In this document: in pieces, positions 14,361 to 39,378 of the stretch
How positions within the stretch are numbered: position 1 is the stretch's first letter
Layout: each line of letters begins with the position of its first letter
Assembly (NCBI GenBank): GCA_002457055.1
Contig: NTKT01000017.1
Coordinates: 1 to 52,325, forward strand
DNA from: Rhodobacteraceae bacterium MED-G08
GTDB lineage: Bacteria; Pseudomonadota; Alphaproteobacteria; Rhodobacterales; Rhodobacteraceae
Reading direction: 5' to 3'
DNA length: 52,325 bases
The notes under the pieces: model-generated
What the model was told of the DNA's origin: nothing
The model's input: the letters and a program-made list of their open reading frames with translations, nothing else
The model's database searches: none
Made by a program: the position numbers and the translations under genes

Positions 14361-14392
14361 GACCCCTCCTATTTGAGAAAACGTTGGATAAT

Positions 14393-15427: not shown

Positions 15428-15428
15428 T

Positions 15429-19148: not shown

Positions 19149-19985
19149 TCAATGCTGTCTTTTGACTTTTGTATCCAAGATTAACATTAATGCAGTTACA
19201 AAAACTGATCCAAATAAGCTCAAAATTAAGACGTATAAAAGCGGAACCATTTGCAACAAAATGGCAAATGCAACACAAAAAACTGCCAAGCTTATAGTAC
19301 CAAATATAGCAGAATAAACAACTCCAGTTACAATGCTCTTTCCAAACACCTTATGAATATTGAATGATATTAAAATATACGCGATCGGGAATGCTAGAAG
19401 AACGCCAGATAAGTGTGCGCCTAGTCTTGAGGCAAAAACAGTAACAACAGAAATTATAATCCCACCAACTACAGCTCGTAAAAAAAGTATCAAATCATTT
19501 TCTGATTTCTTATCGACAAGCTCCTTACCAACGAAAAAACTTCCTACAAAACGTGTGACTATCGTTGAAAAGCCAAAGAAAAATACAGCCTGTAACAAAT
19601 TAAAATTAACTTGGTAGAGGCTACTGGCCAGCAAGATCCATATTACCACAGAAACCAACGCGCAGCTCAAAGGTTTAAAAAACTTTGCTAAAATAAGATA
19701 TGCGAGTAAAAAAACCTGCGTAGCGCTCAAAGCTACTAGTGAGTAAAGAGCAGTTTCATACAAAAAGCTCGTATCACTTTCTAGCATAAGAAAATAAAAC
19801 CCTGGACCGAGCCCAACTGGAAGCCCTGCAATAAGTCCCGCCATAGAGGGGCCAAGAGTAACTACTAGTTTAGCTACAAGTATCACAATAAACGCGGCCA
19901 CTATTACCCTTGTGAGCATGGGCACAAGCATAAGCCCGATACTAAGTTCCAATATATTCTCCAAGTTGTGCCGTAAAAAACTCAA
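19149..19985 (-). CDS. Uncharacterised multi-spanning membrane protein
   Basis: I do not recognise the family with certainty. The 278 residues hold about eight hydrophobic segments and two related Gly/Pro-rich motifs, SMAGLIAGLPVGLGPGFYF near residue 50 and HLSGVLLAFPIAYILISF near residue 190, which suggests an internally duplicated transporter-like fold. Its TTG start at 19985 overlaps the CobW-gene stop (TTGA); an ATG at 19931 is an alternative with a weak ribosome site. It is the last gene of the minus-strand hydantoin arm and could be an exporter or metal or metabolite channel. Confidence 0.65.
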   Translation of the reverse strand: MSFLRHNLENILELSIGLMLVPMLTRVIVAAFIVILVAKLVVTLGPSMAGLIAGLPVGLGPGFYFLMLESDTSFLYETALYSLVALSATQVFLLAYLILAKFFKPLSCALVSVVIWILLASSLYQVNFNLLQAVFFFGFSTIVTRFVGSFFVGKELVDKKSENDLILFLRAVVGGIIISVVTVFASRLGAHLSGVLLAFPIAYILISFNIHKVFGKSIVTGVVYSAIFGTISLAVFCVAFAILLQMVPLLYVLILSLFGSVFVTALMLILDTKVKRQH

Positions 19986-20959
19986 ATGTCATTGAGAACT
20001 TTTTTTAATGAGCCAGAAATTTCAATTTCATCAAGATTACGCCCAATAAGGACTACATTGTTTTCCTTTATGTCGGTTGATCCATCAAACTCATCAGGAA
20101 TACGTTCTGGATTTTGCATAATTTTTCGTACCGACTGCAATAATAATCTACCATTTGGTGTTCGAACTATCCCTTTAATTCGGACAATTTGATTACCATG
20201 TCGATTCAACAGTGCCGATAGCCAGACTGAGAAGCCCACCCAGGTATCATCACGAAAGGTTAAATCATCAAGATTAAGTTGAATAGACGTAATAGGTGAT
20301 AAGTTCTCAACTGTTTCTTTTGTGCTTAAGATAATCGAATCTGTAGGTGTTAATTCTGGCATAGGACTTTCCACACCAAATAAAGATTGACTGATGTTAT
20401 CTATGGGGTTCATGAAATTAAGGGTTGCCACAAGTTTTGATAACTCACCTTCAGAACAACTTTCAGCCTTAGATACAATTATTTGATCTGCAGCCTCGAT
20501 TTGGGAACGTGCTAATGGTTCACTCTTAATTTGCTCAATCCCATGCAAGGCATCTACGATTACAATTATTTTTTCCAGAACAATATGGCGAGCGAGAACC
20601 GGATCATCATTTATCGCGGACATAACATTCGATGGATCGGCAACCCCACTCATCTCAAAAATGAGGAATCTACTGCTTTCTTCGTTTGATTTAACTGTAC
20701 GCTGATTACAAATGCTGTGGAACAGTTCAATCATTTGAGATTGCAGCTCACAACACACACATCCGCCTTGCAAAACATCTAACGCCAACGCTGAACTCAA
20801 TAGTGTATCATCAACTGCGTGTGATGCTACTTCATTTACAATTATGTGCGGTTTATAAAACGTTCCAGCATAAAGCTGATGCCGAAGCCAGGTACTTTTG
20901 CCAGCGCCAAGAAAACCGGAAAGTATTATCAGCTTCAGCCGGTTTTCACTATCGCTCAT
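19982..20959 (-). CDS. CobW/COG0523-family GTPase (metal chaperone)
   Basis: A G3E-family P-loop GTPase of 325 residues. Walker A is GFLGAGKST (about residues 15-23), and the metal-binding C-x-C-C is GGCVCC (C67, C69, C70). FEMSGVADP corresponds to Walker B. The usual NKxD base-specificity motif appears as SKAE, an unusual form. Members of the family deliver Zn, Co or Fe to partner metalloproteins. It follows genes for two metal-dependent amidohydrolase-type enzymes and a small Cys protein, so a role in loading their metal is a reasonable guess. It is six bases from the small-protein gene. Confidence 0.85.
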   Translation of the reverse strand: MSDSENRLKLIILSGFLGAGKSTWLRHQLYAGTFYKPHIIVNEVASHAVDDTLLSSALALDVLQGGCVCCELQSQMIELFHSICNQRTVKSNEESSRFLIFEMSGVADPSNVMSAINDDPVLARHIVLEKIIVIVDALHGIEQIKSEPLARSQIEAADQIIVSKAESCSEGELSKLVATLNFMNPIDNISQSLFGVESPMPELTPTDSIILSTKETVENLSPITSIQLNLDDLTFRDDTWVGFSVWLSALLNRHGNQIVRIKGIVRTPNGRLLLQSVRKIMQNPERIPDEFDGSTDIKENNVVLIGRNLDEIEISGSLKKVLNDI

Positions 20960-20965
20960 AGTATA

Positions 20966-21244
20966 TCAGTTTACCCTCAGAGGATCGTAGGGGTTTCCAG
21001 TAAATATTTCTACTTGCCTCCACACGTCCTCGATAGTTGGGCAAATAACCGTTTTGCCCATTCCATTTGATAACTGAATGCCTGGCAAAGTACCAGCGTC
21101 GGTCGCAGTAATACCAAGCGGCTTAAGTAATCTATTGATTAAATTAGCACGAGCGAAACGTATTTTGAGCCTTTCATGAGGTGTCGCCCCACCAGCGTCC
21201 GTCCAATGACCAACTGCTGGCGGAAAACCACATGCAGAACACAT
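20966..21244 (-). CDS. Small uncharacterised protein with N-terminal C-x2-C motif
   Basis: A 92-residue protein starting MCSACGFPPAVGHWTDAGG, preceded by AGGAAGGA. The C-S-A-C pair and the single histidine that follows look like a partial metal site. The body is basic (ERLKIRFARANLINRLLKPLG) and a third cysteine occurs in TVICPTIEDVW. I have no named family for it; I recall similar small proteins next to CobW-type GTPases. It lies between a cyclic-imidase-like gene and the CobW gene with tight spacing, so it may be a partner in metal transfer. The longer start at 21292 is less likely because the ribosome site fits 21244. Confidence 0.7.
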   Translation of the reverse strand: MCSACGFPPAVGHWTDAGGATPHERLKIRFARANLINRLLKPLGITATDAGTLPGIQLSNGMGKTVICPTIEDVWRQVEIFTGNPYDPLRVN

Positions 21245-21292
21245 TAGCCAGTCCTTCCTAAAAGAAACAGTCGTAACACGTAATTTCAGCAA

Positions 21293-22192
21293 TCATATTG
21301 TTTCAGGACGTTTATCACTATTGAATGGATATCGGACGCGGAAATCGTCTGTTATATCCTGGAAAGTAGTCCACTCCACACCAGACTGTTTGTTAATGTA
21401 TTCTATCAAACGTTCTAACATAAGAAGCACTTGCGGACGCCCTGCTACATCAGGGTGAATGGTAAAACAAAAAGTAGCATAATCCATTTCACGATAAACC
21501 CAGTCAAATTGATCTCGCCAAAGAATTTCAATATCTCTGGGACTCACGAAACCATGGCTATTTGGCGCAGCCTTCATGAACATCATTGGAGGTAGATCAT
21601 CAACGTACCAGTTCGCAGCTATATCCACTAAGTCAATTTCTTTCCCATGCTTCATGGGACGCATCCAAGTACTAGCGTCTTTTGAGTAATCAATCTTTGA
21701 CCACTCATCGCCAACTCTAGCATAGAACGGTAGGAAATCTCGATACATCTGGCTGTGATCATATGTGAAGCCGTATTTCTGCAGTAGCGCTGCAGTATTC
21801 TCAGACATTTCCCACCACGGCGCCACGTAGCCACGGGGTTTGTCACCAGTCAAAGCTTTGATCACCTCCACTGAATAAGCTAAAATATCTTCTTCTTGTT
21901 GCAATGTCATCGCAACAGGGTTTTCATGCATATATCCATGAGCTCCAATTTCATGCTCAGCTTTTTTAATCATCTCCATTTCTTTTGGAAATGAATCCAT
22001 TGTATGACCTGGGATGAAAAAGGTTGATTTCATGTCATATTTTTCAAAGAGCCTGAGAAGCCTGGGCACACCAACCTCAGTAGCGAAAACTCCCCGTTGT
22101 ATATCGGAGGGACTATCCTGCCCCCCGTACGAGCCAATCCACCCTGCAACAGAATCTATATCTATACCAAAGGAACATTTTATCTCTTTCAT
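21293..22192 (-). CDS. Polysaccharide-deacetylase-fold hydrolase, probable cyclic imide hydrolase or allantoinase-like
   Basis: A 299-residue NodB-like metal hydrolase. FGIDIDS holds the catalytic and metal aspartates, TFFIPGHT and [10 protein letters not shown] the metal histidines, and [11 protein letters not shown] the distal His motif. The lack of a signal peptide and the PuuE/cyclic-imidase-like wording point to an intracellular ring-opening amidohydrolase, not a cell-wall enzyme. Cyclic imides, dihydropyrimidines or allantoin are possible substrates. Its neighbours are a D-hydantoinase and a CobW GTPase, which supports ring opening of cyclic ureides or imides. Confidence 0.72.
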
Positions 22193-22335
22193 TGCTAAAC
22201 CTTTCTAACAGTTTTCAGCTACAGCCGATTTTTTTTTCAATCCCTAAATAAATTTATGCACCAGTTATTAAAAAGTTCAAAATATATTTTTATTCCTACA
22301 ACTAGGATATGAACATTAGTAAAAAGCTATCATTA

Positions 22336-23793
22336 TTAGACGCCAATAGGCATAAGCTTTGAATCTCGTTTGATAGATCTTGGAGCTATAAGTTCTTTCC
22401 AAGTTGATAATGCAGTATTTGCAGCTGGAAAAGACGGCCGTTCAATATGCTGACCGCGACCAGGTTGCGCAACAGAATTAGTACTTGAATCCCACACGAC
22501 ATCTCCACGTGACATCGTATATCGAGGTAAACCTGAAACTTCGAAACCTTCAAATACGTTGTAATCGATAATTGATTTTTGAGATTTTGCGCTGATGGTT
22601 TTCTCAGCGGAGGGGTCCCATATTACCAAATCTGCATCAGCTCCCTTCATAACGGAGCCTTTCCTCGGGTAAATATTTAAAATCTTTGCAATATTGGTAG
22701 AAGTTATTGCAACAAACTCATTTGGAGTTATTCGGCCACTTCCCACTCCATATGTCCATAGCAATGATAACCGATCCTCTAGACCACCCGTTCCATTTGG
22801 AATTTTGGTAAAATCTCCAACGCCCATTCTTTTCTGCTCTGTTGTGAAAGCACAATGGTCTGTAGCTACAACATGCAAAGATCCTGCAGATAATCCAGCC
22901 CACAGTCCATCTTGATGATACTTATCACGAAACGGTGGCGACATTACCCGTTGTGCAGCATAATCCCAATCCTCATTGAAATATTCGTTTTCGTCGAGTA
23001 GCAGATGCTGTACTAACGGTTCTCCCCAAACACGCTGTCCTTTTTGCCTTGCTCGTCGTATAGCCTCATGCGCATCCTCACTCGAGGTATGAACAACGTA
23101 TAAAGGAACACCCGTAGCATCAGCAATTGTTATTGCTCGGTTTGTCGCCTCACCCTCCACGGAAGGAGGCCTTGAATATGCATGCGCTTCTGGACCACTA
23201 TTTCCCTCCTCCAAAAACTTTTGCTGCAAACTTGCTATTAGATCTCCGTTTTCAGCGTGAACTAAAGGAAAGGCTCCTAACTCTCCGCATCTTGTGAAAG
23301 AGGCATACATTTGATCATCATTGACCATTAATGCCCCCTTATACGCCATGAAATGCTTGAAAGTATTGACACCTTTACTAACAACATCTGACATTTCATT
23401 AAATATTTTCTCAGACCAATTTGTTATCGACATGTGAAAGCCAAAGTCACATGATGCTTGCCTAGTTGCTCGCTCTAACCATTCATCTAATGCAACCAAC
23501 AAACCTCTTTCATCTGGGACGATCATATCTATTATGGTTGTTGTCCCGCCAGAGAGCGCAGCGAATGTACCACTTTCCCACGTTTCTGCTGTCGTCGTAC
23601 CCATGAAAGGCATTTCTAAGTGAGTGTGGGGATCAATGCCTCCTGGCATAACGTAGCAGGAAGCGGCATCAATTATTTCATCACCAGATAAATTGTCACC
23701 AATCTCAGAAATAATAGCGCCATCTATTTTTACATCGGCGGTATAACTTCTATCCGCTGTGAGTACCGTTCCACCTTTAATAACTTTAGACAT
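22336..23793 (-). CDS. D-hydantoinase/dihydropyrimidinase
   Basis: A dinuclear-zinc amidohydrolase of 485 residues that opens 5-substituted hydantoins or dihydropyrimidines to N-carbamoyl amino acids. Metal ligands are H56 and H58 (GIDPHTHLE), the lysine expected to be carbamylated K146 (NTFKHFMAYKG), H179 (LVHAENG), H235 (YVVHTSS) and D312 (VATDHCAFT). Y151 matches the family substrate tyrosine. The ATG at 23793 is preceded by GGAAGGG; the longer reading adds an unsupported leader. It lies 82 bases after the racemase gene. Hydantoinase rather than pyrimidine breakdown is favoured by the D-carbamoylase and racemases nearby. Confidence 0.9.
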   Translation of the reverse strand: MSKVIKGGTVLTADRSYTADVKIDGAIISEIGDNLSGDEIIDAASCYVMPGGIDPHTHLEMPFMGTTTAETWESGTFAALSGGTTTIIDMIVPDERGLLVALDEWLERATRQASCDFGFHMSITNWSEKIFNEMSDVVSKGVNTFKHFMAYKGALMVNDDQMYASFTRCGELGAFPLVHAENGDLIASLQQKFLEEGNSGPEAHAYSRPPSVEGEATNRAITIADATGVPLYVVHTSSEDAHEAIRRARQKGQRVWGEPLVQHLLLDENEYFNEDWDYAAQRVMSPPFRDKYHQDGLWAGLSAGSLHVVATDHCAFTTEQKRMGVGDFTKIPNGTGGLEDRLSLLWTYGVGSGRITPNEFVAITSTNIAKILNIYPRKGSVMKGADADLVIWDPSAEKTISAKSQKSIIDYNVFEGFEVSGLPRYTMSRGDVVWDSSTNSVAQPGRGQHIERPSFPAANTALSTWKELIAPRSIKRDSKLMPIGV

Positions 23794-23875
23794 CTTACAC
23801 CCTTCCACTAGCAAGCACTGCATACTTAATCGAGTCTCTGTACATTAAACTATTCGCGATAACAGAAAATATCCA

Positions 23876-24547
23876 TCACCCATTTGGCACTGCAAGCATC
23901 CCTTCTCCAAGTAAAGCAGCTGCATATACCCCATCAACAACTGGCATATTAAACTCTTTACTAAATGGCTTGGCTAAATGTGCCATTCCTGCACATCCTA
24001 AAGCTATGCTTCCAATCGAATATTCGCGCAGTAAAGAATGGATAATTTCTCGCATCTTCACTTTGGTTTCTTTTGGTTTGTTTTCAAAATCCAAAACAGG
24101 GATGTTACTAGCGTGTACGAAGCTACATTTATCAAGCAGACCATAATTTCTAAGATTATCTTCAATTACTGGAATGGCTTCTGAGACAGTCGTTATAACT
24201 CCGAATTTATCAGCATAAAGTGAACACATTGTAAAAGCTGCCCAGCCTATCCCAATAGTAGGAATTGATATAGTTCTCCTTGCTTCAAGAAGAAATGGAT
24301 CGTCAAAGCACGCTATAACAGCTAATTTTGACTTCGCTTTTTCTGCTTCTTTCAAATTTGAAAACAAAATCGGCTTTGCTTTTTCTGCATCAATTGGACC
24401 CTGTATAGCACTTGGAGCGCCAAAGCATGTTACCCCGGTTACATTTCGACGGTTATTTAAAGCAGAGTTAGCTGACGAAACAATTTTATCAGTCATAGAC
24501 TGTGTTGAATTTGGGTTTACAAAAACAATATCGGTGCTCTGCGTCAA
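23876..24547 (-). CDS. Asp/Glu/hydantoin racemase family protein (first copy)
   Basis: A cofactor-independent racemase of 223 residues that can interconvert hydantoin enantiomers by two cysteines. FVNPNST opens the protein, C80 lies in VIACFDDP and C185 in ALGCAGM, the expected pair. It begins with TTG at 24547, overlapping the permease stop as TTGA, with GGAAAGGG upstream. It is clearly different from the second racemase at 35.9 kb (different flanks around both cysteines), so the two may prefer different substrates. Its place directly before the hydantoinase gene supports a hydantoin substrate. Confidence 0.85.
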   Translation of the reverse strand: MTQSTDIVFVNPNSTQSMTDKIVSSANSALNNRRNVTGVTCFGAPSAIQGPIDAEKAKPILFSNLKEAEKAKSKLAVIACFDDPFLLEARRTISIPTIGIGWAAFTMCSLYADKFGVITTVSEAIPVIEDNLRNYGLLDKCSFVHASNIPVLDFENKPKETKVKMREIIHSLLREYSIGSIALGCAGMAHLAKPFSKEFNMPVVDGVYAAALLGEGMLAVPNG

Positions 24548-25386
24548 ACAAGACCCTTTCCAGCATCAGACCCTTTCTTGTCACGTCTTCTCTGCGATAA
24601 TACAAAAAACGTGAGAAAGAAAACGATGATTAACAGAGAAAATAATGTCGTAAGAGTGCCAAGTGCATATATAACTGGGGTTGTCACATTGGTTGTCATC
24701 CCAAAAATTTCTAACGGCAAGGTGTTGCGACTGCCTGATGTCAACAATGTTCTGGCAAATTCATCATAACTCAGTGTGAAACCAAACAAAGCCACACCTA
24801 TTAAAGAAGGAGCAATTATCGGCAGCACAATCAAACGAAAAACTTGAATTGGACCTGCCCCTAAATCTCTGCCAGCTTCCTCATACGCTTTGTCGAAACG
24901 GTTGAAAACCGCAAACATTATCAGAATTCCAAAGGGAAGCGTCCAGGTTAATTGAGCACCCAATCCTGAAGTAGACCAATGAACTTCCCACCCTAATTGA
25001 GAAAATATCAGGCCAACGCCTAATGACACTAGAATTGATGGAATGACCAAGCTTGCAATGATAAGGTAAAAAAGTGGTGTTGAGCCAAAGAATTTTTTTC
25101 TATATGCCATCCCAGCCCCAACCGAAAATACAACGGTTATCACCATGACCGTCAAACCTAGGATAATACTTCGTTGGAAAGATCCCCAGATATCACCGAC
25201 CATTTGAGTTCTAAATAATTCCTGAAACCAATGCAAAGATGTGCCTTGCATCGGGAACGTTAAACCCCCAGTTGGGCCCTGAAAACTAAGAATACCTATT
25301 GTTATGACCGGGCCGTAAAGAAATACTAAAAACGCAATAAATATTGCAGTTAGTACATAAAAACCTGTAGATCGCTTTTCACCCAA
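24544..25386 (-). CDS. ABC transporter permease, PotC-like (second importer)
   Basis: Inner-membrane permease of 280 residues, six hydrophobic segments, with the EAA loop in YEEAGRDLGAGPIQVFRLIVLPIIAPSL. It starts with TTG at 25386 after a clear GGAG, three bases from the preceding permease stop. It is similar in family but distinct from the permease at 15.4 kb. With the other subunits it would import a substrate for the hydantoin arm. Confidence 0.86.
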   Translation of the reverse strand: MGEKRSTGFYVLTAIFIAFLVFLYGPVITIGILSFQGPTGGLTFPMQGTSLHWFQELFRTQMVGDIWGSFQRSIILGLTVMVITVVFSVGAGMAYRKKFFGSTPLFYLIIASLVIPSILVSLGVGLIFSQLGWEVHWSTSGLGAQLTWTLPFGILIMFAVFNRFDKAYEEAGRDLGAGPIQVFRLIVLPIIAPSLIGVALFGFTLSYDEFARTLLTSGSRNTLPLEIFGMTTNVTTPVIYALGTLTTLFSLLIIVFFLTFFVLSQRRRDKKGSDAGKGLV

Positions 25387-25388
25387 AG

Positions 25389-26246
25389 TTATAACTCCTT
25401 ACGAATATCCACAAAACGGAGCATGATTGAAATCATAATGACCACGGTTGCTAATAAAACGACCGCAGTCGCACAAGCAGAGGGATATTGAAGTAAACTT
25501 ATATCATTAGAAATTAGTCGTCCCATATTTGCTATTTGAGAACCTGACATAAATCTTACGGTAATAAAATCACCCATCACCAGCGCCACAACAAATATTG
25601 AACCAATCATTATTCCAGGCTTACAGAGAGGAATTATAACATTTACTAAAATCTGCGTACTTGATGCCCCAGCGTCTCTAGCTGCCTCTATAAGCGATTT
25701 ATCAATTCTCATCATAGTGTTGAAGATCGGGACCACCATGAATAGAGTGTATAAATGCACAAAAGCCAAACAGACTGAAAACTCAGAATACAGTAGCCAC
25801 TCGACTGGCTCATCGACTATGCCCATCTCGATCAATGACTGATTTGCCAATCCATTCCTACCTAGAAATGGAATCCAACTAATCATTCTGATGATGTTTG
25901 ACGTCCAAAATGGGATAGTGCAGAGGAGAAAACAAATGATTTGCCAGGTCAGAGAGTGTACGAAAAAAGCCAGATAGTATGCGACTGTAAATCCTAAAAC
26001 AAGTGTTATTGCCCACACTAGAACCGCAAAATATAAAGTTCTAAAAAACACCCGATAAGTGACATCGGAAGTTAACAGAAATTCGTAGTTATCAAATAGA
26101 AAAGCAGGGTAAATCGAGAACTCTGTGGAACCCCAAAAACTTACTGCTGTAATTAGGATTATCGGCACAATAATAAATGCCGACAAAACCAAAATCACTG
26201 GACTAGCCAATAATATACTAGAGATATTTTTTTGTAATACAGCCAA
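25389..26246 (-). CDS. ABC transporter permease, PotB-like (second importer)
   Basis: Inner-membrane permease of 285 residues with six membrane segments and the EAA motif in LIEAARDAGASSTQILVNVIIPLCKPGI. The best start is a TTG at 26246; no in-frame ATG lies near enough to keep the first membrane segment whole. It follows the binding-protein gene across a 94-base gap that contains a long perfect hairpin. It pairs with the PotC-like permease. Confidence 0.85.
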   Translation of the reverse strand: MAVLQKNISSILLASPVILVLSAFIIVPIILITAVSFWGSTEFSIYPAFLFDNYEFLLTSDVTYRVFFRTLYFAVLVWAITLVLGFTVAYYLAFFVHSLTWQIICFLLCTIPFWTSNIIRMISWIPFLGRNGLANQSLIEMGIVDEPVEWLLYSEFSVCLAFVHLYTLFMVVPIFNTMMRIDKSLIEAARDAGASSTQILVNVIIPLCKPGIMIGSIFVVALVMGDFITVRFMSGSQIANMGRLISNDISLLQYPSACATAVVLLATVVIMISIMLRFVDIRKEL

Positions 26247-26307
26247 TATTAGTGTCCGTAATCCGTTAACAATTTATTAAGGCTAGTAAAGATGCCCTTG
26301 AGTCTTT

Positions 26308-26342
26308 GGTCGACGCAAAGATTTGCGTCGACCTTTTTTTTT
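26308..26342. terminator. Long perfect hairpin between binding-protein and permease genes
   Basis: GGTCGACGCAAA (26308-26319) and its exact complement (26322-26333) form a 12-bp stem with a two-base loop. The run of T follows it on the plus strand, so as an intrinsic terminator it points toward the plus strand, against the genes. For the minus-strand mRNA it would be a strong 3' hairpin just after the binding-protein stop, of the sort that stabilises that part of the message. Confidence 0.6.
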
Positions 26343-27618: not shown

Positions 27619-27644
27619 ATTAATCTCCAACTTGATTTATGACA

Positions 27645-28619: not shown

Positions 28620-28700
28620 ATATTCTTTCTCATGTGTTGGACTGAAAGCTGTCAGCGACTCGGCCGAATGTCTGCTTATTAGGTCGCAATTGGAGGTAAA

Positions 28701-28717
28701 AATCAAACAAATTGATT
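28701..28717. promoter_or_regulatory. Inverted repeat upstream of the second importer
   Basis: AATCAA (28701-28706) and TTGATT (28712-28717) form a short inverted repeat with a five-base spacer, in the 249-base gap between hyuB and the ATPase gene. It lies about 80 bases before the ATPase start. It could be an operator, but in AT-rich DNA such a short repeat may arise by chance. No clear promoter boxes were identified in the gap. Confidence 0.25.
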
Positions 28718-28868
28718 AAAAAAGAAGCACAAATCTATACGATTGCACATTTTTTTATCTCCGAGAAATGCTGTTTATTTGCATTTTTTACTCAATCTAG
28801 AGGCAGAAATTTACAAGTTATCAAAGGAAGAATCTTCGAAAAAAATTTAAAGAAAGCTTAAAATCCTT

Positions 28869-30578
28869 CTAGAACATCATGTTATATTCATCTTTGGCTA
28901 TCTTTTCTGTAATTATTTCGTTTTCTAAATCTGATTTTACCATTTCTGGATCTCTTTCTGATTTAGATCCATATCCTCCGCCGTTTGGCCCCAGAACCTC
29001 TATTTTTGTTCCGACAGGAATTAGCTTATACGGAATTTTAGATGGCAAGCTCGACTTATTATTTGATTGTTCTACTAAATTTATTTCTGCAGTAGACCCA
29101 CTGGCGCCACCATCAAAGCCCCAAGGCTTGTACTTGTGTCCATCTCCCTCAATGGAAATTGCTCCATCATCCAGAAATTCAAAAAGTCTTACTGTGCCTA
29201 AACCACCACGCCACTTACCATGACCTGCATCAGCTTCTCGCAACTCATATTTTAAGACTCTCAATGGCAAATGACTTTCAATATCCTCGATTGGGTTATT
29301 TCTTGTATTCGCATATAGCGTGTCTACTGCATCCATACCATCTTGCCCATATCGCCCACCGTAAGACCCCTCCATTATTTCCATGTGAACCCATTGGGAG
29401 CCTGCGCTTCCACCGGAAAAGGCAACCACCCTTAAATTTCCAATACCCGCGCTGACTTTTTCTGGAACGGCTTTTGACATCGCCTTCATTACTGTGTCAG
29501 CCACAGCATTACCGGGGCAAAATCTTGCTATTACTGGTGCAGGAAAAATTGGATTTGCAAGACTGCCGAGCGGCGCTGTTATTTCAATGGGTCTCGTAAG
29601 ACCACTATTTTGAGGTATTGCGCCGAACTCGTTACTATCAAGCAGAATAGAACGAAGCGTCAACCATATTGCACAATCTACTGTGCCAACAAAGGGCATA
29701 TTTATAGGCTTATTATCAATCTGCTTGGAAGTGCCTGCCAAGTCAACTTTCAAGTTCGACCCTTTTACATTAATTGACGCGGCTATTTTAATGTCTTTTA
29801 AATTTGCATCCTCACTATCTAGAAATCCATCTATGAATGTTTCTGCATAATAAGTCCCATCGGGAACCTCTTCGATCGCTTTGCGCATCAGCGTCTCTGA
29901 ATAATCTAGAAGGTTCTCATACGCAGCAGTTATGGTCTCAAGCCCATATTTTTGAATAAGTTCATTAAATCTCTCCGCGCCAATTCTTGCTGCGGAAACT
30001 TGTGCCTCCATATCTCCAACTACTAGGTCCGGCATCCTTATGTTTGACCTTAAAATTTGCCACACTGGCTCAACTTTTTTGTTATTTTCATAGACTCTGA
30101 CTGCTTTGAACTGGAGGCCTTCAGCATATGCATCGACAGCATCGACAATTCCACAACTTCCAGGTGTCAAAGCCCCAACGTCGAGATGGTGGGCAGTCGT
30201 GACCGAAAAACCAACAAGGTCATTATTAGCGAATACGGGAACAAGAAACCCAACATCTGGACCGTGTGAAGCACCATTGTAAGGGTCGTTGTGCATAAAA
30301 ATGTCCCCTGGCTTAATTTCATCACCACGTCCTTTTAATTCCTCGAGCACACCCATCACATATCCTGGAATTGGGCCAGATTGTAGCGGAGTACTCATGG
30401 TACACTCACAAAGCTGACGCCCAGTTTGGTCCGTTAATGCAGTCCCAAAGTCTTCGCTTTCTCTAATGATACTTGAGTAGCTCATACGCATAAGCTTCTG
30501 GCCCATTTCCAACGCTATGTCTTCAAGCGCCCCATGGATCACAGATGCTAAAAAAGGATCTATATTTTTATCAATCAT
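28869..30578 (-). CDS. hyuB: Hydantoinase B/oxoprolinase-family subunit
   Basis: Second subunit of an ATP-dependent hydantoinase or N-methylhydantoinase (relative of 5-oxoprolinase). The 569 residues include MSYSSIIRESEDFGTALTD, HNDPYNGASHGPDVGF, the DVGALTPGSCG segment with its histidines before it (TTAHHLDVG), and GGxGTVR and GPNGGGYGSKSERDPE near the C-terminus, all typical of HyuB. The gene overlaps the HyuA stop by eight bases. The enzyme would open rings that the zinc hydantoinase cannot, such as N-methylhydantoin from creatinine. Confidence 0.9.
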   Translation of the reverse strand: MIDKNIDPFLASVIHGALEDIALEMGQKLMRMSYSSIIRESEDFGTALTDQTGRQLCECTMSTPLQSGPIPGYVMGVLEELKGRGDEIKPGDIFMHNDPYNGASHGPDVGFLVPVFANNDLVGFSVTTAHHLDVGALTPGSCGIVDAVDAYAEGLQFKAVRVYENNKKVEPVWQILRSNIRMPDLVVGDMEAQVSAARIGAERFNELIQKYGLETITAAYENLLDYSETLMRKAIEEVPDGTYYAETFIDGFLDSEDANLKDIKIAASINVKGSNLKVDLAGTSKQIDNKPINMPFVGTVDCAIWLTLRSILLDSNEFGAIPQNSGLTRPIEITAPLGSLANPIFPAPVIARFCPGNAVADTVMKAMSKAVPEKVSAGIGNLRVVAFSGGSAGSQWVHMEIMEGSYGGRYGQDGMDAVDTLYANTRNNPIEDIESHLPLRVLKYELREADAGHGKWRGGLGTVRLFEFLDDGAISIEGDGHKYKPWGFDGGASGSTAEINLVEQSNNKSSLPSKIPYKLIPVGTKIEVLGPNGGGYGSKSERDPEMVKSDLENEIITEKIAKDEYNMMF

Positions 30579-32661
30579 TGTTATTATCCAATTTTCTTAA
30601 TCTTAGAGTTAGGTCATCATCAACAGACATTGTCCATCCAGGGGGTACAACTGTTGTACTGTCCTCTTGATAAATAACGTTTGGACCAGCTTTTTGGGCA
30701 CCGCCTGTCAAAGTCTTCCTGTCTATAATTTCAGTTTCAAAACTTTGGGGTTTACCATCAATGCTAAATTCTACTTTAGTATTAGGTAAATTCAAACGAC
30801 TAACAGTTTCATCACTGCTATTTTCAAAAGAAAATTTATTGCTCGAATTTTCCTTTTTAATTTGTGCCTTCAACTTTACCGATACCATTTCTATATCTGC
30901 AGATAAGAAATTGTGACCATATTCTTGCTTATGCTGTTTGTGGAAGGCATCCCATACCTGCTCCAAGTTTTCTGGCTTAAGCACATCAGAATTAAGGGGT
31001 ACTTTTAGCTCATACCCCTGACCCACATATCTTAGGTCAGTAAACGCCTCAAATTGTATTAATTTTGTATCAGCCTTATCCCGTTCAAAAATTGAAGTCA
31101 GATCACTTTTCATTTCAGATAAGGTTTCATTAAGGGTGGATAAATTAAATTGTGTCTTTGTCATAAGCAACGTTTTGACAGAATGGTATTCAACCTGGGA
31201 AATTAACAATCCAAAAGCACACATTATTCCGGGATTCTGCGGTACAATAACTTCATTTATACCCAAAATTTCAGCCACACCGACTGCTTGTAAAGGCCCT
31301 CCTCCACCGAACGCGCATAAGCTAAAATCTCTTGGATCGATACCTTTTTGTATGGTTCTCGATCTTATGGCTGAAGCCATGTTATTATTGAGAACTGAAA
31401 TTGTGCCAAGTGCCGTTTGATTTATAGTACTTCCAAGGTTTGAGGAAACTTCTTTCAGGCTCGTTTCTGCCATTTGTGAATCCAGCGTCATTCTTCCATC
31501 AAGAATTCTGTCACCTAGCAGCCTACCCAACACTAAATTTGCATCTGTTACTGTTGGTTTTGATCCACCTAAATTATAGCATGCCGGACCAGGAAAAGCT
31601 CCAGCACTCTCAGGACCAACCTTAAAACCACCACCAGCATCTACTCTAGCAATCGAACCTCCCCCTGCGCCAATCGTGTGAATATCAATCATTGGTAGCT
31701 GTACAGGGTAACCTGAGATACTTGCATTACGTGAGCTGACCTCATTCAATTGGCCATCATTAATAATTGAAATGTCAGCACTAGTCCCGCCTATATCTAA
31801 AGTGATTAGGTTTTTCATTTTTTTCTTAGATGCGAGCCATAAGCCAGCATTTGCCCCAGCAACTAATCCCGAAAGCAAGGTAAGTTCTGGGTGCCTCATT
31901 ATCATTTCTGGTGTAGCCAGTCCGCCACTGGAAGTCATAATTCTCAACTCAGCGTTCTGGCAAATATTCTTTAAATTAAATGATAAATTATCAATATATT
32001 GCGTAACTTTTGGCCCAATGAAAGCTGCAACGGCACCAGTAGTAAAACGTTCAAACTCACGAAATTGCGGAGAGACACTGGATGAAGTCGTAACAAAAGC
32101 ACTTGGAATTTGGTCTCGAACAATTTCTAAAACACGATTTTCATGTGCATTATTTCGATAAGAAAACAAAAAAGCTATGAGAATAGAATTTACATTATTA
32201 TCCTTAAAAAACTCTAAATGAGCCAAAATACTTTTTTCATCTAACGGTGTAATTTCATTACCAGAGCTATCTAGACGGCAGTTTACGGTCTTTCTAAACT
32301 TACGCTCTATCAAGGCTCTGTCTTGCCAAGGGATTTCCTGTCCAATCGAATAATGTTGCGGCCTTTGATGTCTGCCAATGTGCAAAATATCTCTAAAACC
32401 AGAGTTAGTTATTAAACCAACTTTTGCGCCTTTGCCCTCAAGTATGGAATTAGTTCCAACGGTGGTTCCATGAAAAATGGTGGACACGTCTTTTGCTTTG
32501 ATCGAGTACTTTGCTAAGAGCGCCTCCAGACCGGAACAGACCGCTTTGGATGGATCATCCGGCGTTGATGCTGTTTTATAGACAAAAGTTTTTTGATTAG
32601 AATTATCGAAACAGAAAAAATCAGTAAACGTACCACCGACATCAATACCAATTGAATACAA
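30571..32661 (-). CDS. hyuA: Hydantoinase A/oxoprolinase-family subunit (ATP-dependent)
   Basis: The ATP-binding subunit of the same enzyme, 696 residues. GIDVGGTFTDFF at the N-terminus is the actin-like phosphate-binding motif, LDIGGTSADIS the second, and GAGGGSIARVDAGG, GPESAGAFPGPACYN and CAFGGGGPLQAV are the conserved hydantoinase-A blocks. The ATG at 32661 has AGGAAGAAG upstream. It is the first gene of the minus-strand arm, divergent from the MDR gene by 88 bases. Hydantoin, N-methylhydantoin, acetophenone-carboxylase-type or oxoproline substrates all remain possible on sequence alone. Confidence 0.9.
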   Translation of the reverse strand: MYSIGIDVGGTFTDFFCFDNSNQKTFVYKTASTPDDPSKAVCSGLEALLAKYSIKAKDVSTIFHGTTVGTNSILEGKGAKVGLITNSGFRDILHIGRHQRPQHYSIGQEIPWQDRALIERKFRKTVNCRLDSSGNEITPLDEKSILAHLEFFKDNNVNSILIAFLFSYRNNAHENRVLEIVRDQIPSAFVTTSSSVSPQFREFERFTTGAVAAFIGPKVTQYIDNLSFNLKNICQNAELRIMTSSGGLATPEMIMRHPELTLLSGLVAGANAGLWLASKKKMKNLITLDIGGTSADISIINDGQLNEVSSRNASISGYPVQLPMIDIHTIGAGGGSIARVDAGGGFKVGPESAGAFPGPACYNLGGSKPTVTDANLVLGRLLGDRILDGRMTLDSQMAETSLKEVSSNLGSTINQTALGTISVLNNNMASAIRSRTIQKGIDPRDFSLCAFGGGGPLQAVGVAEILGINEVIVPQNPGIMCAFGLLISQVEYHSVKTLLMTKTQFNLSTLNETLSEMKSDLTSIFERDKADTKLIQFEAFTDLRYVGQGYELKVPLNSDVLKPENLEQVWDAFHKQHKQEYGHNFLSADIEMVSVKLKAQIKKENSSNKFSFENSSDETVSRLNLPNTKVEFSIDGKPQSFETEIIDRKTLTGGAQKAGPNVIYQEDSTTVVPPGWTMSVDDDLTLRLRKLDNNND

Positions 32662-32713
32662 CTTCTTCTTCCTTTTAATAAAAGTATAGTGTTACCATAA
32701 TGTGGAGCAGATT

Positions 32714-32728
32714 TTGACTATGAGTCAA
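32714..32728. promoter_or_regulatory. Palindrome in the hyuA divergent promoter
   Basis: TTGACTATGAGTCAA is a perfect inverted repeat (six-base arms, spacer ATG) centred in the 88-base gap between hyuA and the MDR gene. Its place suits an operator controlling both arms. No regulator gene lies adjacent, so the binding protein is unknown; a GntR-type factor would fit the size of the site. Confidence 0.5.
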
Positions 32729-32749
32729 TAGACAGAAGGGGTCGCTCGG

Positions 32750-33730
32750 ATGAAAGGAATTCAAATAAATAAAATTGATGATGATTTCCACAGAAGTTTG
32801 GAAATTAATTTACCCAAGCCTGATTTAAACAACCATGAAATTTTAGTTGAAGTACATTATGGAGGGTTGAATTATGCTGATCTGATGATGTGCAATGGCT
32901 CTTATCCCCACCCCAAAGGTTACCCACTTCAAGCAGGAATAGAGTTTTCAGGCATTGTTGCAAAATGTGGCTCAGAAGTTCAAAATTTTTCAGTTGGCGA
33001 CAGAGTGGCAGGCTTCTCCGAAAACGCTGGTGCCTTTTCAGAGTTTTTAAGTATACCAGAGACTAGCGTCACAAAATTGATTGACGAAGTTTCTCTTGAA
33101 GACGGTGCTGCGTATTACGTCCAAACAACAACGGCATTTCACTTATTGCATACTATTGGCAAGGTAGAGGCCAATGATATTTTACTCATTCATGCCATAG
33201 GTGGCGGCGTTGGCTTGAACTTAACCCAGCTTGCAAAGCTCTCCGGAGCAACGGTAGTTGGCACTGTCGGAACAACTGGAAAGGAGAAAAGACCATTAGA
33301 GTGTGGAGCTGACCTTGTTTTGGACCGGACCAAGCAGCAATTTACGGAAGAAATTCAGCAAAAATTTGGAAAATCCCCTATAAGACTGTTAATCGACTCC
33401 ACCGGTGCAGATATTTTAAATGACAGCTTCGATTTAATGCAAAACTTAGGTCACGTTGTAAGTTATGGAGAAGCCAGTGGTAAACCTTATGATAACCTTT
33501 GGTCCCAACTAGTTCGTAGGTCTTTAACTTTCTCAAGGCTGCATATCGGCCATATCGATCATCGATCAGACGAGTGGCTTCAGTCTCAGATTACTATCCA
33601 AGAAATGATTAAGAATAAAAAACTAAAGTTATTTATTGAACATATTTTTGCAATCGAAGACTTTGACTTAGCTTATCAATCACTCGACAGCCGTAAAATA
33701 TCAGGAAAAATTTTAATCAAAATAAAATGA
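32750..33730 (+). CDS. Zinc-independent MDR oxidoreductase, quinone oxidoreductase-like
   Basis: A 326-residue NAD(P)H-dependent medium-chain dehydrogenase/reductase. The catalytic N-terminal domain contains GLNYADLMMCNGSYPHP and AGIEFSGIV, and the Rossmann domain has AIGGGVGLNLTQLAK (about residues 140-155). The zinc ligands of alcohol dehydrogenases are absent, as in quinone oxidoreductases (Qor). AAGGGG precedes the ATG. Its stop overlaps the next gene start (ATGA), so it is part of the plus arm. It may reduce an unsaturated or carbonyl intermediate; the substrate is unknown. Confidence 0.83.
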   Translation: MKGIQINKIDDDFHRSLEINLPKPDLNNHEILVEVHYGGLNYADLMMCNGSYPHPKGYPLQAGIEFSGIVAKCGSEVQNFSVGDRVAGFSENAGAFSEFLSIPETSVTKLIDEVSLEDGAAYYVQTTTAFHLLHTIGKVEANDILLIHAIGGGVGLNLTQLAKLSGATVVGTVGTTGKEKRPLECGADLVLDRTKQQFTEEIQQKFGKSPIRLLIDSTGADILNDSFDLMQNLGHVVSYGEASGKPYDNLWSQLVRRSLTFSRLHIGHIDHRSDEWLQSQITIQEMIKNKKLKLFIEHIFAIEDFDLAYQSLDSRKISGKILIKIK

Positions 33731-34932
33731 ATTGCCATTATTTCAAAAATCAGACTAGCAAAAGACCAATATACTTTAATTCTCAGCGAGTGCCGTTTAA
33801 CGAGGCTCAGGCACTTATAAAAAAAATTCTACCTGACTCAGGATTTACTTCTGCTTACGAAACTATTTCTAAGTGGCCAGGTTATCAGCCAACATCGCTA
33901 ATTAATCTTGTTAATGTAGCAGATGCATTGGGGGTCAAATCTGTTTTTTACAAAAACGAGGCAGAGCGGTTTGGCCTAAAGAGCTTCAAGGCTTTGGGTG
34001 GAGCCTATGCGGTACATAAATGCTTAGAAATGCTAGTTGGAAAAAATCATATTAGTGATAATAAAAGTCCAAAAATCAAAAAGATGATAGCCGGTATAAC
34101 GGTCACTTCGGCAACAGATGGAAACCATGGAAAATCTGTAGCCTGGGGAGCTAAGATGTTTGGCTGTAAATGCGTAATATTTATTCATGAGAAAGTGAGC
34201 AAAAATAGAGAAAACGCCTTAAAGAAATACGGGGCCCAAGTCGTAAGGGCTGGGAAAAATTATGACGAAAGTGTGAAAATAGCTCAGGAGAAAGCAAAGG
34301 AAAATGACTGGCACGTAATTTCTGATACATCATACGCCGGATATTCCACAATCCCGAAACATGTAATGAATGGCTATGAAGTTATGATCTACGAGGCTGT
34401 AATTAAGCAAAGTGTTAGGCCAACACACGTATTTTTGCAAACAGGTGTGGGCAGCTTGGCAGCGGGAGTAACTGCAAGCCTTTTCCGTAACCTCTATTAT
34501 TCGCCCAGGATAATTTTGGTAGATCCAGAAAATGCAGATTGTTGGGTGCAATCAATTAAGCATCAAGAACCTGTCGCATGTGAGGGTAGCCTTGATACTT
34601 ATATGGCAGGATTGGCTTGTGGAACCGTTTCAGTAATAGCTTGGGAGATCCTTAGCAAAACCATAGAAGCCTCAATGAGCATATCTGATTTAGATGCCGC
34701 GAGAGCAATGCGTTGTTTAAAATTTTGTAAAAGATCGCACTATGCAATAGAGGCTGGAGAGTCAGCAACTGCCGGATTGGCTGGCCTCATTTTAACCTCA
34801 AATACCTCTAGATTGAAGCAGCAATTGAAAATAAACAAAGACTCACAAATTTTGATTATAGGTAGCGAGGGTGTTACCGATAGAGATATCTACAACAAAA
34901 TTGTGACAAATGAACTACTTTCAGAAACATGA
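33727..34932 (+). CDS. Diaminopropionate ammonia-lyase-family PLP enzyme
   Basis: A fold-type II PLP enzyme of 401 residues, the usual length of diaminopropionate ammonia-lyase (DpaL). K88 in SFKALGGAYAV is the Schiff-base lysine, D131 in ATDGNHGKSVAWG and D200 in ISDTSYAGY match the two catalytic aspartates of the enterobacterial enzyme (Asp120 and Asp189) with exact spacing. These are reported to serve the D- and L-isomers, so the enzyme should act on both and could also deaminate D-serine-like acids. It overlaps the genes on both sides. Placed beside a D-carbamoylase it may turn the released D-amino acid into a keto acid and ammonia. Confidence 0.86.
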   Translation: MNCHYFKNQTSKRPIYFNSQRVPFNEAQALIKKILPDSGFTSAYETISKWPGYQPTSLINLVNVADALGVKSVFYKNEAERFGLKSFKALGGAYAVHKCLEMLVGKNHISDNKSPKIKKMIAGITVTSATDGNHGKSVAWGAKMFGCKCVIFIHEKVSKNRENALKKYGAQVVRAGKNYDESVKIAQEKAKENDWHVISDTSYAGYSTIPKHVMNGYEVMIYEAVIKQSVRPTHVFLQTGVGSLAAGVTASLFRNLYYSPRIILVDPENADCWVQSIKHQEPVACEGSLDTYMAGLACGTVSVIAWEILSKTIEASMSISDLDAARAMRCLKFCKRSHYAIEAGESATAGLAGLILTSNTSRLKQQLKINKDSQILIIGSEGVTDRDIYNKIVTNELLSET

Positions 34933-35843
34933 AAAATAGATCTAAATACATAGCCGCTGCGGCTCAACTTGGCCCTATCAATCCAGAAGACAGTAAAGAG
35001 TCTGTTATTTCCAGAATGCTTAATCTTTTAGTCGCAGCAAAAGCAAACGAAGCCAAGCTAGTAGTATTTCCAGAGCTCTGCTTAACAACTTTCTTTCCAA
35101 GGTACTATATAACTGATCAAGCTAAGCTGGATGAATTCTATGAAACGGAAGTTCCATTCTCACTTATGGCTGAAATATTTGAGTTAATCAAAGAAGACAA
35201 CATTATAATATCTTTTGGATTTGCAGAAAATGATAATGGAACACCTTTCAACACTTCCGTCTATGTAGAACCCTCTAAAAAAATAATTGGAAAATATAGA
35301 AAGATCCATTTACCGGGCCATAGAGAGTATGAACCACAGCGTCCATTCCAACACCTCGAAAAACGATATTTTAAAAAGGGAAACCTAGGATTCCCAACTT
35401 TCGATACTAGTCTCGGCAAGCTCGGAATGTGCATTTGTAATGATCGACGCTGGCCAGAAACGTATAGGTTACTAGCCCTTCAGGGATGTGAGGTTGTGAC
35501 ATTGGGTTATAACACCCCCAAGCATTATCCATTGGCTCCTGAGCATGATCATCTCCAAGAATTTCACAATCATCTTTGTATGCAAGCGGGCGCTTATGCC
35601 AATGGTCTTTGGGTTATAGCCTCGGCTAAGGCTGGTTTAGAAGATAACTGTGAATTAATTGGTGGGAGCTGCATTATATCTCCACGCGGAGAAATTGTTG
35701 CAGAAGCGAAAACGACAAAAGATGAACTTGTGCTTGCTGAAATCAATCTTGATGAATGCCGGTTGATAAAAGAAAATATTTTTAATTTTGATTTGCACCG
35801 ACAGCCTGAGGATTACAAACTTTTAACAAAAACAACAAAATAG
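34929..35843 (+). CDS. N-carbamoyl-D-amino acid hydrolase
   Basis: A nitrilase-superfamily enzyme of 304 residues that hydrolyses N-carbamoyl-D-amino acids to the D-amino acid, CO2 and ammonia. It matches the Agrobacterium D-carbamoylase throughout as I recall it: FPELCLTTFFPRYY with E49, KYRKIHLPGHREYE with K125, CICNDRRWPETYR with C170, GYNTPKHYP, PEHDHL and IFNFDLHRQPEDY. The carbamoylase-specific phrases make this a firm call. Its start overlaps the DpaL-type gene stop by four bases. Together with the zinc hydantoinase and the racemases it completes conversion of racemic hydantoins to D-amino acids. Confidence 0.93.
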   Translation: MKNRSKYIAAAAQLGPINPEDSKESVISRMLNLLVAAKANEAKLVVFPELCLTTFFPRYYITDQAKLDEFYETEVPFSLMAEIFELIKEDNIIISFGFAENDNGTPFNTSVYVEPSKKIIGKYRKIHLPGHREYEPQRPFQHLEKRYFKKGNLGFPTFDTSLGKLGMCICNDRRWPETYRLLALQGCEVVTLGYNTPKHYPLAPEHDHLQEFHNHLCMQAGAYANGLWVIASAKAGLEDNCELIGGSCIISPRGEIVAEAKTTKDELVLAEINLDECRLIKENIFNFDLHRQPEDYKLLTKTTK

Positions 35844-35844
35844 A

Positions 35845-35861
35845 ACGGTCTATGAGACCGT
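35845..35861 (+). promoter_or_regulatory. Intercistronic palindrome before the hydantoin racemase
   Basis: ACGGTCTATGAGACCGT is a perfect inverted repeat with seven-base arms around ATG, two bases after the D-carbamoylase stop and 13 bases before the racemase start. In the mRNA it forms a short hairpin just upstream of the GAGG ribosome site, so it may set the expression ratio of the two genes. No T-run follows, so it is not an intrinsic terminator. Confidence 0.45.
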
Positions 35862-35874
35862 ATGTGAGGATCCA

Positions 35875-36612
35875 ATGAAAATACTTGTTATAAACCCAAA
35901 CACAACTTTAGAAATGACAAAAAGCATAGGAGAAATGGCTGAAAAATACTGTGCGCGAGGCACAGAGATTACAGCAATAAGTCCTGACTGGGGTCCACGT
36001 TCTATTGAGGGACATTTCGAGGAATATTTATCGGCTATGGCAACCGTAGAAACGGTTGCAAAATTTAAAGAAGATTATGATGCATTTGTCATCGCCTGCT
36101 ATGGAGATCCAGGTGTTTCAGCATGTAGAGAAGTCACCGAAAAACCCGTGGTTGGAATCGGTGAAGCATCTATGCATATGGCATGTTTTGTCGGTCACAA
36201 ATTCTCTGTAGTTACTGTAATTCCAAGAATTAAACCACTTTTGGAAGACTTGGTAAAACAACTTGGCCTAACTTCAAAATGTGCATCAATACGAGCGACT
36301 AATCTTTCGGTCTTAGAAATAGAACAGGATCCAGAGAGAGCCGTTACAGAGATGATTGATGAGGCAAAACTGGCTGTAAAAAATGACGGTGCAGAGGCAA
36401 TTTGCCTTGGGTGTGCTGGAATGGGTCCGCTCGATTTGCGGGTGCAAGACGCTGTAGGGGTTCCAGTTTTTGATGGAACCGTTTCTGCCGTAAAAATAGT
36501 AGAGGGTCTCGTCACCTATGGTAAACACACCTCTAAGATTGGGGCTTACTCCTGGCCAGAAAAGAAAGAACTTGTGGGTTGCTCAACTATACTACAATCA
36601 ATTTCGGAGTAG
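35875..36612 (+). CDS. hyuE: Hydantoin racemase (Asp/Glu/hydantoin racemase family, second copy)
   Basis: A 245-residue cofactor-independent racemase. It opens MKILVINPNTT, has C75 in VIACYGDPG and C180 in CLGCAGMG, and includes IEGHFEEYLSAMA, wording I associate with true hydantoin racemases (HyuE) more than the first copy. It would interconvert D- and L-5-substituted hydantoins so that a D-specific hydantoinase can use the entire pool. GTGAGG lies before the ATG. It is the last gene of the plus arm. Confidence 0.88.
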   Translation: MKILVINPNTTLEMTKSIGEMAEKYCARGTEITAISPDWGPRSIEGHFEEYLSAMATVETVAKFKEDYDAFVIACYGDPGVSACREVTEKPVVGIGEASMHMACFVGHKFSVVTVIPRIKPLLEDLVKQLGLTSKCASIRATNLSVLEIEQDPERAVTEMIDEAKLAVKNDGAEAICLGCAGMGPLDLRVQDAVGVPVFDGTVSAVKIVEGLVTYGKHTSKIGAYSWPEKKELVGCSTILQSISE

Positions 36613-36932
36613 CATAGCGCTATTTAGTCAGTTTATTTTTGGCACGACTAATATTCATATAAACGTTGTTTAACTTCTACTTTTATATCCAAATCTTCAA
36701 CGATACCTCTTCGAAACTGAATGCTTGCAAATGTTTAGGGCAGTAGTGTTGCCAATCCAAACAATCTGATATTACTTGGTAGAGAGTACTTGACAGTTGG
36801 CCTATAAAGTTGCCGCATAACTTCAGCAAATGAATTATTCAAACCGGTTCAATCACTAAACAAGTATACAGCACAGAAGGCGCTATGTATAAATTTCTAC
36901 AACACAATCACGTAGTTTTTTAGGTGCACATT
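36613..36932. other. Non-coding gap after the hydantoin plus arm
   Basis: About 320 AT-rich bases without a credible gene. I see no strong terminator hairpin with a T-run and no clear riboswitch. It must contain the promoter of the next two-gene unit, but no box pair with proper spacing stands out. Confidence 0.4.
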
Positions 36933-38003: not shown

Positions 38004-38026
38004 GCGCAAATTTGATGGGACATAAT

Positions 38027-39352: not shown

Positions 39353-39378
39353 ACGGTGTCACCTTAAGACCAGTGATC

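Follow-up and report, generated by a model that had tools for sequence, protein, structure and literature searches.

In the draft genome of Rhodobacteraceae bacterium MED-G08 (GCA_002457055.1; 2.2 Mb, 86.6% complete), from a host that is probably marine judging by its relatives, we analysed one contig of 52,325 nucleotides (NTKT01000017.1, contig C9 of the genome) at its full length, here called the window. At 19149-36612 it carries a 16-gene cluster that we read as probably serving the peripheral catabolism of hydantoin-type or ureide compounds, with recovery of their nitrogen. Two arms diverge from a short intergenic region. The left arm (minus strand) runs HyuA, HyuB, PotA, PotD, PotB, PotC, Rac2, zinc D-hydantoinase, HP0310-like hydrolase, small CxxC protein, CobW/G3E GTPase and membrane protein, and the right arm (plus strand) runs MDR, DpaL-type lyase, D-carbamoylase and Rac1. 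Within each arm the genes share one strand with mostly short gaps and several overlaps of 4 bases, an operon-like packing. Family and structure matches placed every gene named in an earlier note on this DNA where that note had put it; its list omitted the MDR gene that starts the right arm. A small CxxC protein is encoded between the hydrolase and CobW genes. The features are as follows, with Sulfitobacter denoting the plasmid of Sulfitobacter sp. SK012 (NZ_CP025805.1).

32662..32749, no strand: divergent intergenic region between HyuA and MDR, 88 bases by coordinates (305 bases between the same divergent pair in Sulfitobacter)
30571..32661, minus: HyuA, ATP-dependent hydantoinase/oxoprolinase alpha subunit (PF01968, PF05378; PDB 7hk5, 538 bits)
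28869..30578, minus: HyuB, ATP-dependent hydantoinase beta subunit (PF02538, 472 bits; 7hk5, 403 bits; 64% identity to the Sulfitobacter copy)
27645..28706, minus: PotA-like importer ATPase (ABC_tran and TOBE_2; 59% to Sulfitobacter)
26341..27630, minus: PotD-like binding protein with a twin-arginine leader (SBP_bac_8)
25389..26246, minus: PotB-like permease (NCBIfam PotB model matched below its cut-off; 72% to Sulfitobacter)
24544..25386, minus: PotC-like permease (PF00528; 76% to Sulfitobacter)
23876..24547, minus: Rac2, Asp/Glu/hydantoin racemase family protein (PF01177; two Cys)
22336..23823, minus: zinc D-hydantoinase/dihydropyrimidinase (TIGR02033, 568 bits against a cut-off of 393; PDB 4tqt, 780 bits, metal ligands aligned)
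21293..22192, minus: cyclic-imidase-like hydrolase of HP0310/HxnM type, polysaccharide-deacetylase fold (PF01522; PDB 3qbu, 455 bits, metal ligands aligned)
20966..21244, minus: small CxxC..HW protein, putative metal-handling partner (start set at the conserved MCSACG; CxxC, HW and DPL/DPM conserved)
19982..20959, minus: CobW/COG0523 G3E GTPase with a CXCC motif (PF02492 and PF07683; CVCC at residue 67)
19149..19985, minus: membrane protein, a doubtful cluster member (no Pfam or NCBIfam family; no blast match in the related clusters annotated)
32750..33730, plus: MDR/quinone-oxidoreductase-like reductase (PF08240 and PF00107)
33727..34932, plus: DpaL-type pyridoxal phosphate (PLP) ammonia-lyase (NF006058, 438 bits against a cut-off of 276; PDB 4d9g, 219 bits, K88, D131 and D200 aligned)
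34929..35843, plus: N-carbamoyl-D-amino-acid hydrolase, the D-carbamoylase (PDB 1erz, 367 bits; E49, K125 and C170 invariant)
35875..36612, plus: Rac1, Asp/Glu/hydantoin (allantoin-type) racemase (PF01177; PDB 5lfd, 218 bits)

The enzymes keep the positions expected for catalysis. In the zinc D-hydantoinase, the residues aligned to 4tqt are H-x-H, K (the carboxylated-lysine position), H, H and D, which we take to be the metal ligands. The D-carbamoylase matches 1erz across residues 7-300, near full length, and the invariance of its E49, K125 and C170, presumably the Glu-Lys-Cys triad, extends over 12 aligned sequences. The DpaL-like lyase also shares two cysteines with the E. coli enzyme 4d9g; K88 is presumably the PLP lysine, and D131 and D200, which we take to be the stereo-specific aspartates, are both kept, just as the earlier note had said. 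The lyase misses the strict equivalog model TIGR03528 (300.7 against 532 bits), so that an E. coli-type substrate is not assured. The substrate of a DpaL-type enzyme must be an amino acid carrying a beta leaving group. HyuA and HyuB have the Hydantoinase_A and Hydantoinase_B domains, and N-methylhydantoinase 7hk5 is the closest solved relative of both. Rac1 and Rac2 each contain the two cysteines presumed to be catalytic (C75 and C180; C80 and C185, by PF01177 motif offsets). The name hydantoin racemase, given to both proteins earlier, is a superfamily-level call: two PF01177 proteins are present, the closest PDB match of Rac1 is the allantoin racemase 5lfd, and Rac2 is more distant.

A second dihydropyrimidinase copy is encoded on contig C12 of the same genome, adjoining an M20-family gene, and this makes the window copy an extra one. 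The two copies are 66-67% identical, as might be expected if the cluster were a second pyrimidine (dihydropyrimidine) degradation locus. We consider that very improbable: the C12 copy already has its M20 neighbour, with a partial match to the YgfK model 4-5 kb away that may be the pyrimidine pathway's reductase, as we assume, whereas in the window cluster the D-carbamoylase is alpha-specific and there is no such reductase. The C12 stretch (50749-56807; dihydropyrimidinase, M20, partial YgfK-model match) is itself a possible reductive pyrimidine degradation locus.

The metal-handling end of the left arm is a conserved triad of HP0310/HxnM-like hydrolase, small CxxC..HW protein and G3E GTPase. 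A class-level search with the hydrolase found 22 other places, and the small protein lies within the 1.5-kb flanks at all 22. At 19 of them the small protein and GTPase follow downstream on the hydrolase's strand; at L244-L246 the small protein is encoded on the other strand, with the GTPase seen in only one of those three. All seven plasmid loci viewed, out of 72 records matching the hydrolase, hold the triad, including one from Rubrobacter, an actinobacterium (locus L192 repeats L226 and was left out of counts). The CxxC, HW and DPL/DPM motifs are kept in nine of nine aligned small proteins. This protein matched no Pfam family, its single-sequence fold was weak (mean predicted local distance difference test score, pLDDT, 62.7), and searching with that fold returned nothing with an E-value below 0.6. 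At L205, L207 and L209 the triad adjoins an asparaginase gene, which hints at imide to half-amide to acid chemistry.

The hydrolase aligns with 3qbu over nearly its full length, including the Asp, Asp, His, His and His metal ligands named in PMC3084791. As described in passages of the two source papers, HP0310 was inactive on typical polysaccharide substrates and was judged a small-molecule binder (PMC3084791), and fungal HxnM, related to HP0310, was proposed to open a cyclic imide (PMC9304392). The window hydrolase is like this family in its near-full-length match and kept ligands, and unlike the members described in those passages in having genes for a CxxC protein and a G3E GTPase as neighbours. 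The nitrile hydratase activator and its COG0523 relatives, in which a CXCC-bearing G3E GTPase is likewise encoded beside a metalloenzyme (PMC2770081, in part), offer an analogy from which we infer that the pair may be a dedicated metal loader of the hydrolase; the enzyme family differs here, and the small CxxC..HW partner is distinct. A term search of the available portion of that COG0523 survey gave nitrile hydratase and cobalamin among the partners and no occurrence of hydantoin, allantoin, imid- or dihydropyrimidinase (PMC2770081), and full-text literature searches gave no description of a hydrolase/CxxC protein/G3E GTPase link among the matches listed. Of the features that the earlier note had called new, this metal-chaperone tail has held up best.

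The D-carbamoylase and the DpaL-type lyase form a second recurrent unit. Their genes adjoin in 8 of 20 order-level loci (annotated out of 34 places matched by the D-carbamoylase) and in 33 of 80 contig loci, which are the best 80 of at least 580 and several of which are short. Of these 33, 22 have an M20 carbamoylase gene, which immediately precedes the D-carbamoylase gene in 19 and lies further off in L075, L102 and L126. Neighbour clustering of the 80 loci contained spurious opposite-strand frames in G+C-rich genomes, and we relied solely on those clusters that a window protein or the M20 query had named. In a DpaL tree the window row, which is of unusual composition and sits on a long branch (1.86), falls in a marked group of 13 rows that all adjoin a D-carbamoylase; over the whole tree the D-carbamoylase-neighbour label takes 5 changes, as low a number as in 34 of 500 shuffles, and overall clustering is weak. 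A D-hydantoinase joins the pair in L085, L086, L104 and Rhizobium daejeonense, and a Pot-type importer together with a hydantoinase does so in Seohaeicola (L086), Martelella (L104) and R. daejeonense.

A comparable set of enzymes is known from reductive urate breakdown. Passages of PMC12507026 describe an E. coli/C. difficile cluster of hyuA, ygeW/uacY, ygeY and ygeX, with the chemistry from hydantoinase to diaminopropionate lyase established in E. coli and a D-aminoacylase-like enzyme handling the 2-ureido group in C. difficile; the E. coli genes were also seen directly in our analysis. A hydantoinase with a PLP lyase, put forward earlier as new, is thus already on record (PMC12507026, in the passages above), and we also found the combination in L085, L086, L104 and L181. 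The window cluster would have in common with the urate cluster a D-hydantoinase-type ring opening, 2-ureido cleavage and a DpaL/YgeX lyase. It differs in having no YgeW or YgeY, so that the D-carbamoylase would take the 2-ureido role, and in its ATP-binding cassette (ABC) import.

It is possible, although we judge it unlikely, that the cluster is an import-fed lower half of the urate pathway, which would be a special case of the catabolic reading that we favour. Imported 5-ureidomethylhydantoin (or 2,3-diureidopropionate) would be opened by the D-hydantoinase, the D-carbamoylase would replace YgeW/UacY in removing the 2-ureido group, the 3-ureido group would be lost, and the DpaL-type lyase would yield pyruvate and ammonia. 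This order of reactions matches HyuA, YgeW/UacY, YgeY and YgeX (PMC12507026, as excerpted), and the R (D) configuration has been proposed in a passage of PMC12990295. The M20 carbamoylase of the related loci would fit the place of YgeY, and R. daejeonense has an M20 gene, its product 56% identical to that of L033, together with hydA and a Pot-type importer. Against these points, the window cluster itself is without an M20 gene, and the genome's M20 proteins are 33% (contig C20) and 42% (beside the other dihydropyrimidinase) identical to that of the module. The window hydantoinase shares 39% identity with E. coli HyuA, against 66-78% with dihydropyrimidinase-type copies. SsnA and YgfK both scored below cut-off in this 86.6%-complete genome (196 of 455.5 bits and 242 of 835.3 bits), and we therefore rejected the full urate pathway; with no M20 gene in the cluster as well, at most its lower half, fed by uptake, could operate.

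DpaL-type enzymes take D-serine as a side substrate, and a D-serine-type route would lead from 5-hydroxymethylhydantoin via N-carbamoyl-D-serine and D-serine to pyruvate by the same lyase. We regard this route as improbable. Diaminopropionate is the substrate given for the E. coli lyase (PMC12507026, in part), and a genomic link to D-serine was neither looked for nor seen.

Relatives of the importer are widespread: among the 291 other genomes of the order sample, 44 have a PotD of at least 77% identity. PotA, PotD, PotB and PotC stand together in 14 importer loci, with a racemase-family gene after PotC in 12 of them. At L068 a window-type importer lies at most 6 kb from DpaL and D-carbamoylase genes, with a second transporter in between that resembles the tripartite ATP-independent periplasmic (TRAP) type by reading-frame likeness to L033. 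In a low-identity alignment, window PotD has M, V and G at the positions of E. coli PotD D168, E171 and D257 and keeps W229, W255 and Y293, all of which we take to be E. coli ligand residues. The loss of the acidic residues argues against polyamines, and we disfavour polyamine import by PotADBC, though the three aromatic residues are kept. In genome G133, which has the left arm, an inserted stretch (L148, 5300-7950) interrupts the D-carbamoylase gene, and HyuAB and MDR are found elsewhere (L163).

Close relatives of HyuB are rare, occurring in 4 of 292 genomes of the order sample and 22 of 385 of the class sample, own genome counted. Of 20 other class-level HyuB loci (annotated out of 22 other places matched, some short), 8 have Rac1 nearby, 6 the D-carbamoylase, 3 the window-type importer and 1 the HP0310-like hydrolase; none of the 20 has DpaL or the D-hydantoinase nearby. 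MDR accompanies HyuAB in L043, L163 and L178, and at 35-36% identity in L195 and L197. In L043 and L106, a hydantoinase that passes TIGR02033 lies within the same 20 kb as HyuAB, D-carbamoylase, Rac1 and ABC ATPase genes. The earlier note had presented two hydantoinase types with an ABC importer as new and a permease as the usual arrangement. We reject the novelty: both hydantoinase types share 20 kb in these other Alphaproteobacteria (see also L178), HyuAB stands with ABC importers on plasmids of Agrobacterium, Sulfitobacter and Paroceanicella, and among the loci viewed an NCS1 permease arrangement was seen with HyuAB only on a Peribacillus plasmid (L179). That plasmid, from a member of the Bacillota, encodes a HyuB 63% identical to the window's with a Zn-dependent hydrolase, a racemase and NCS1 permeases, which suggests wide transfer of this HyuAB type. 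The hyu clusters of Aminobacter, Rhodobacter sphaeroides and Bradyrhizobium, as covered in passages of PMC3546935, have a D-hydantoinase and a D-carbamoylase, sometimes with a racemase, as does the window, and a dihydropyrimidinase flanked by ABC transporter genes has already been reported there; beyond the clusters in those passages, the window adds HyuAB, DpaL, the PotADBC importer, the cyclic-imidase-like hydrolase and the metal pair.

The closest counterpart to the whole cluster is on the Sulfitobacter plasmid. There MDR and HyuA-HyuB diverge, and the genes that come next, on the other strand, are those for GTPase, small protein, hydrolase, hydA, D-carbamoylase, PuuE-like, NTF2-like, racemase and PotC-B-D-A, with identities to the window proteins from 38% (racemase) to 81% (PotD). 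This plasmid, known from its genes alone, has 13 of the 16 gene families and the same divergent HyuA/MDR pair. The differences are that the 23.7 kb viewed contains neither DpaL nor a second racemase nor the membrane protein, that the right arm is represented by MDR and D-carbamoylase only, that the D-carbamoylase stands among left-arm genes, and that there are extra PuuE-like and NTF2-like genes. To the earlier question of whether the two arms co-occur in related genomes, the answer is thus that most of both stand together here; arms that never co-occur, the case named in that note as refuting its reading, are not what we find, and the arrangement is not unique.

Overall, the window joins separable modules: PotADBC with a racemase; HyuAB, often with MDR; D-hydantoinase with the cyclic-imidase-like hydrolase and the metal pair; and DpaL with D-carbamoylase. 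These could be three or four independent neighbours with different substrates (Pot importer and racemase, cyclic imidase and metal pair, HyuAB and MDR, DpaL and D-carbamoylase) collected in a catabolic island, an arrangement in keeping with the finding of every module elsewhere without the others and with the further catabolic genes that flank the cluster. We think such independence unlikely, given the joint retention of 13 families and the divergent pair in Sulfitobacter. In addition, 15 genomes are common to the close-HyuB and close-hydrolase lists, though many come from the same few families; the hypergeometric probability of 1.2e-18 assumes one draw of 366 genomes (the draws were 385 and 367) and ignores kinship.

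The flanks of the cluster are as follows. Beyond Rac1, after a 311-base gap, lie genes for a family-less protein, a HemL/GntE-like class-III aminotransferase and an MttB-family (trimethylamine methyltransferase-type) protein (36924-40899). On the other side, at 8315-18261, a second catabolic set adjoins the cluster, with another PotABCD-type importer, a CN_hydrolase, a class-III aminotransferase, a flavin adenine dinucleotide (FAD)-dependent, flavin monooxygenase (FMO)-like enzyme and an aldehyde dehydrogenase; an M20 peptidase gene at 7165-8385 goes with this set.

From gene content, motifs, operon-like packing and the conservation of modules, we infer the following reactions, transport substrate and metal-loading role for our favoured reading, an import-fed breakdown of hydantoin-type or ureide compounds by way of D-amino acids to a keto acid. 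The PotADBC-type importer, with its binding protein exported by twin-arginine translocation, would take up the compound, and the racemases would interconvert its 5-position enantiomers. The zinc D-hydantoinase would open the ring to an N-carbamoyl amino acid, with ATP-dependent HyuAB serving rings that the zinc enzyme cannot open. The D-carbamoylase would then release the D-amino acid, CO2 and ammonia, and the DpaL-type lyase would convert the amino acid, if it has a beta leaving group, to a 2-oxo acid and ammonia. The HP0310-like hydrolase, which would obtain its metal from a small CxxC protein and G3E GTPase of its own, would open a related cyclic imide or ureide. Our tentative guess for the most likely end amino acid is D-2,3-diaminopropionate or a 3-ureido derivative, at less than even odds. 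The earlier note had called the chain complete; import, ring-opening, decarbamoylation and deamination do make a sensible series, and completeness was overstated, given the lyase's need for a beta leaving group and the missing M20 carbamoylase.

Several observations weigh against this reading. The full 16-gene set was found in none of the annotated loci, and the closest HyuB (L162, 71%) has no MDR, D-carbamoylase, racemase or window-type importer within 20 kb. The importer with its racemase mostly occurs without a hydantoinase, and a D-hydantoinase (66-75%), hydrolase, small protein and GTPase adjoin it in 2 of the 14 importer loci (L148, L159). Of the 33 loci with DpaL and D-carbamoylase, 3 have a D-hydantoinase relative and 1 has HyuAB relatives (33/27%). 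Where the hydantoinase joins this pair, it can belong to another subfamily (L086, L104 and the R. daejeonense locus L181; NF009941 passed, 37-40% identity), and the importer of L086 and L104 is not of the window type (PotD 24% identical). DpaL relatives are found beside other partners too, the window cluster has no M20 carbamoylase, and the top NCBIfam names for HyuA and HyuB are caprolactamase subunits, far below cut-off.

The pieces of most interest are the triad of hydrolase, CxxC protein and GTPase and the module of D-carbamoylase and DpaL, with or without M20. A bolder reading, which we hold to be rather doubtful, joins the two: the cluster would be an aerobic, import-fed Proteobacterial counterpart of the lower reductive urate pathway, in which the hydantoinases and D-carbamoylase bring ureidomethylhydantoin/diureidopropionate to D-diaminopropionate for the DpaL-type lyase, beside an undescribed metal-insertion pair maturing a cyclic imide/ureide hydrolase. 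Within a three-gene cassette, the hydrolase may receive its metal from the G3E GTPase and the small CxxC protein; HP0310, the first of this enzyme family with a solved structure, has no confirmed substrate in the available text of PMC3084791. The PotADBC importer and racemase, found in many Rhodobacterales, may carry hydantoins or ureides rather than polyamines. Finally, D-carbamoylase and DpaL recur as a module, for which products of reductive purine breakdown are possible substrates.

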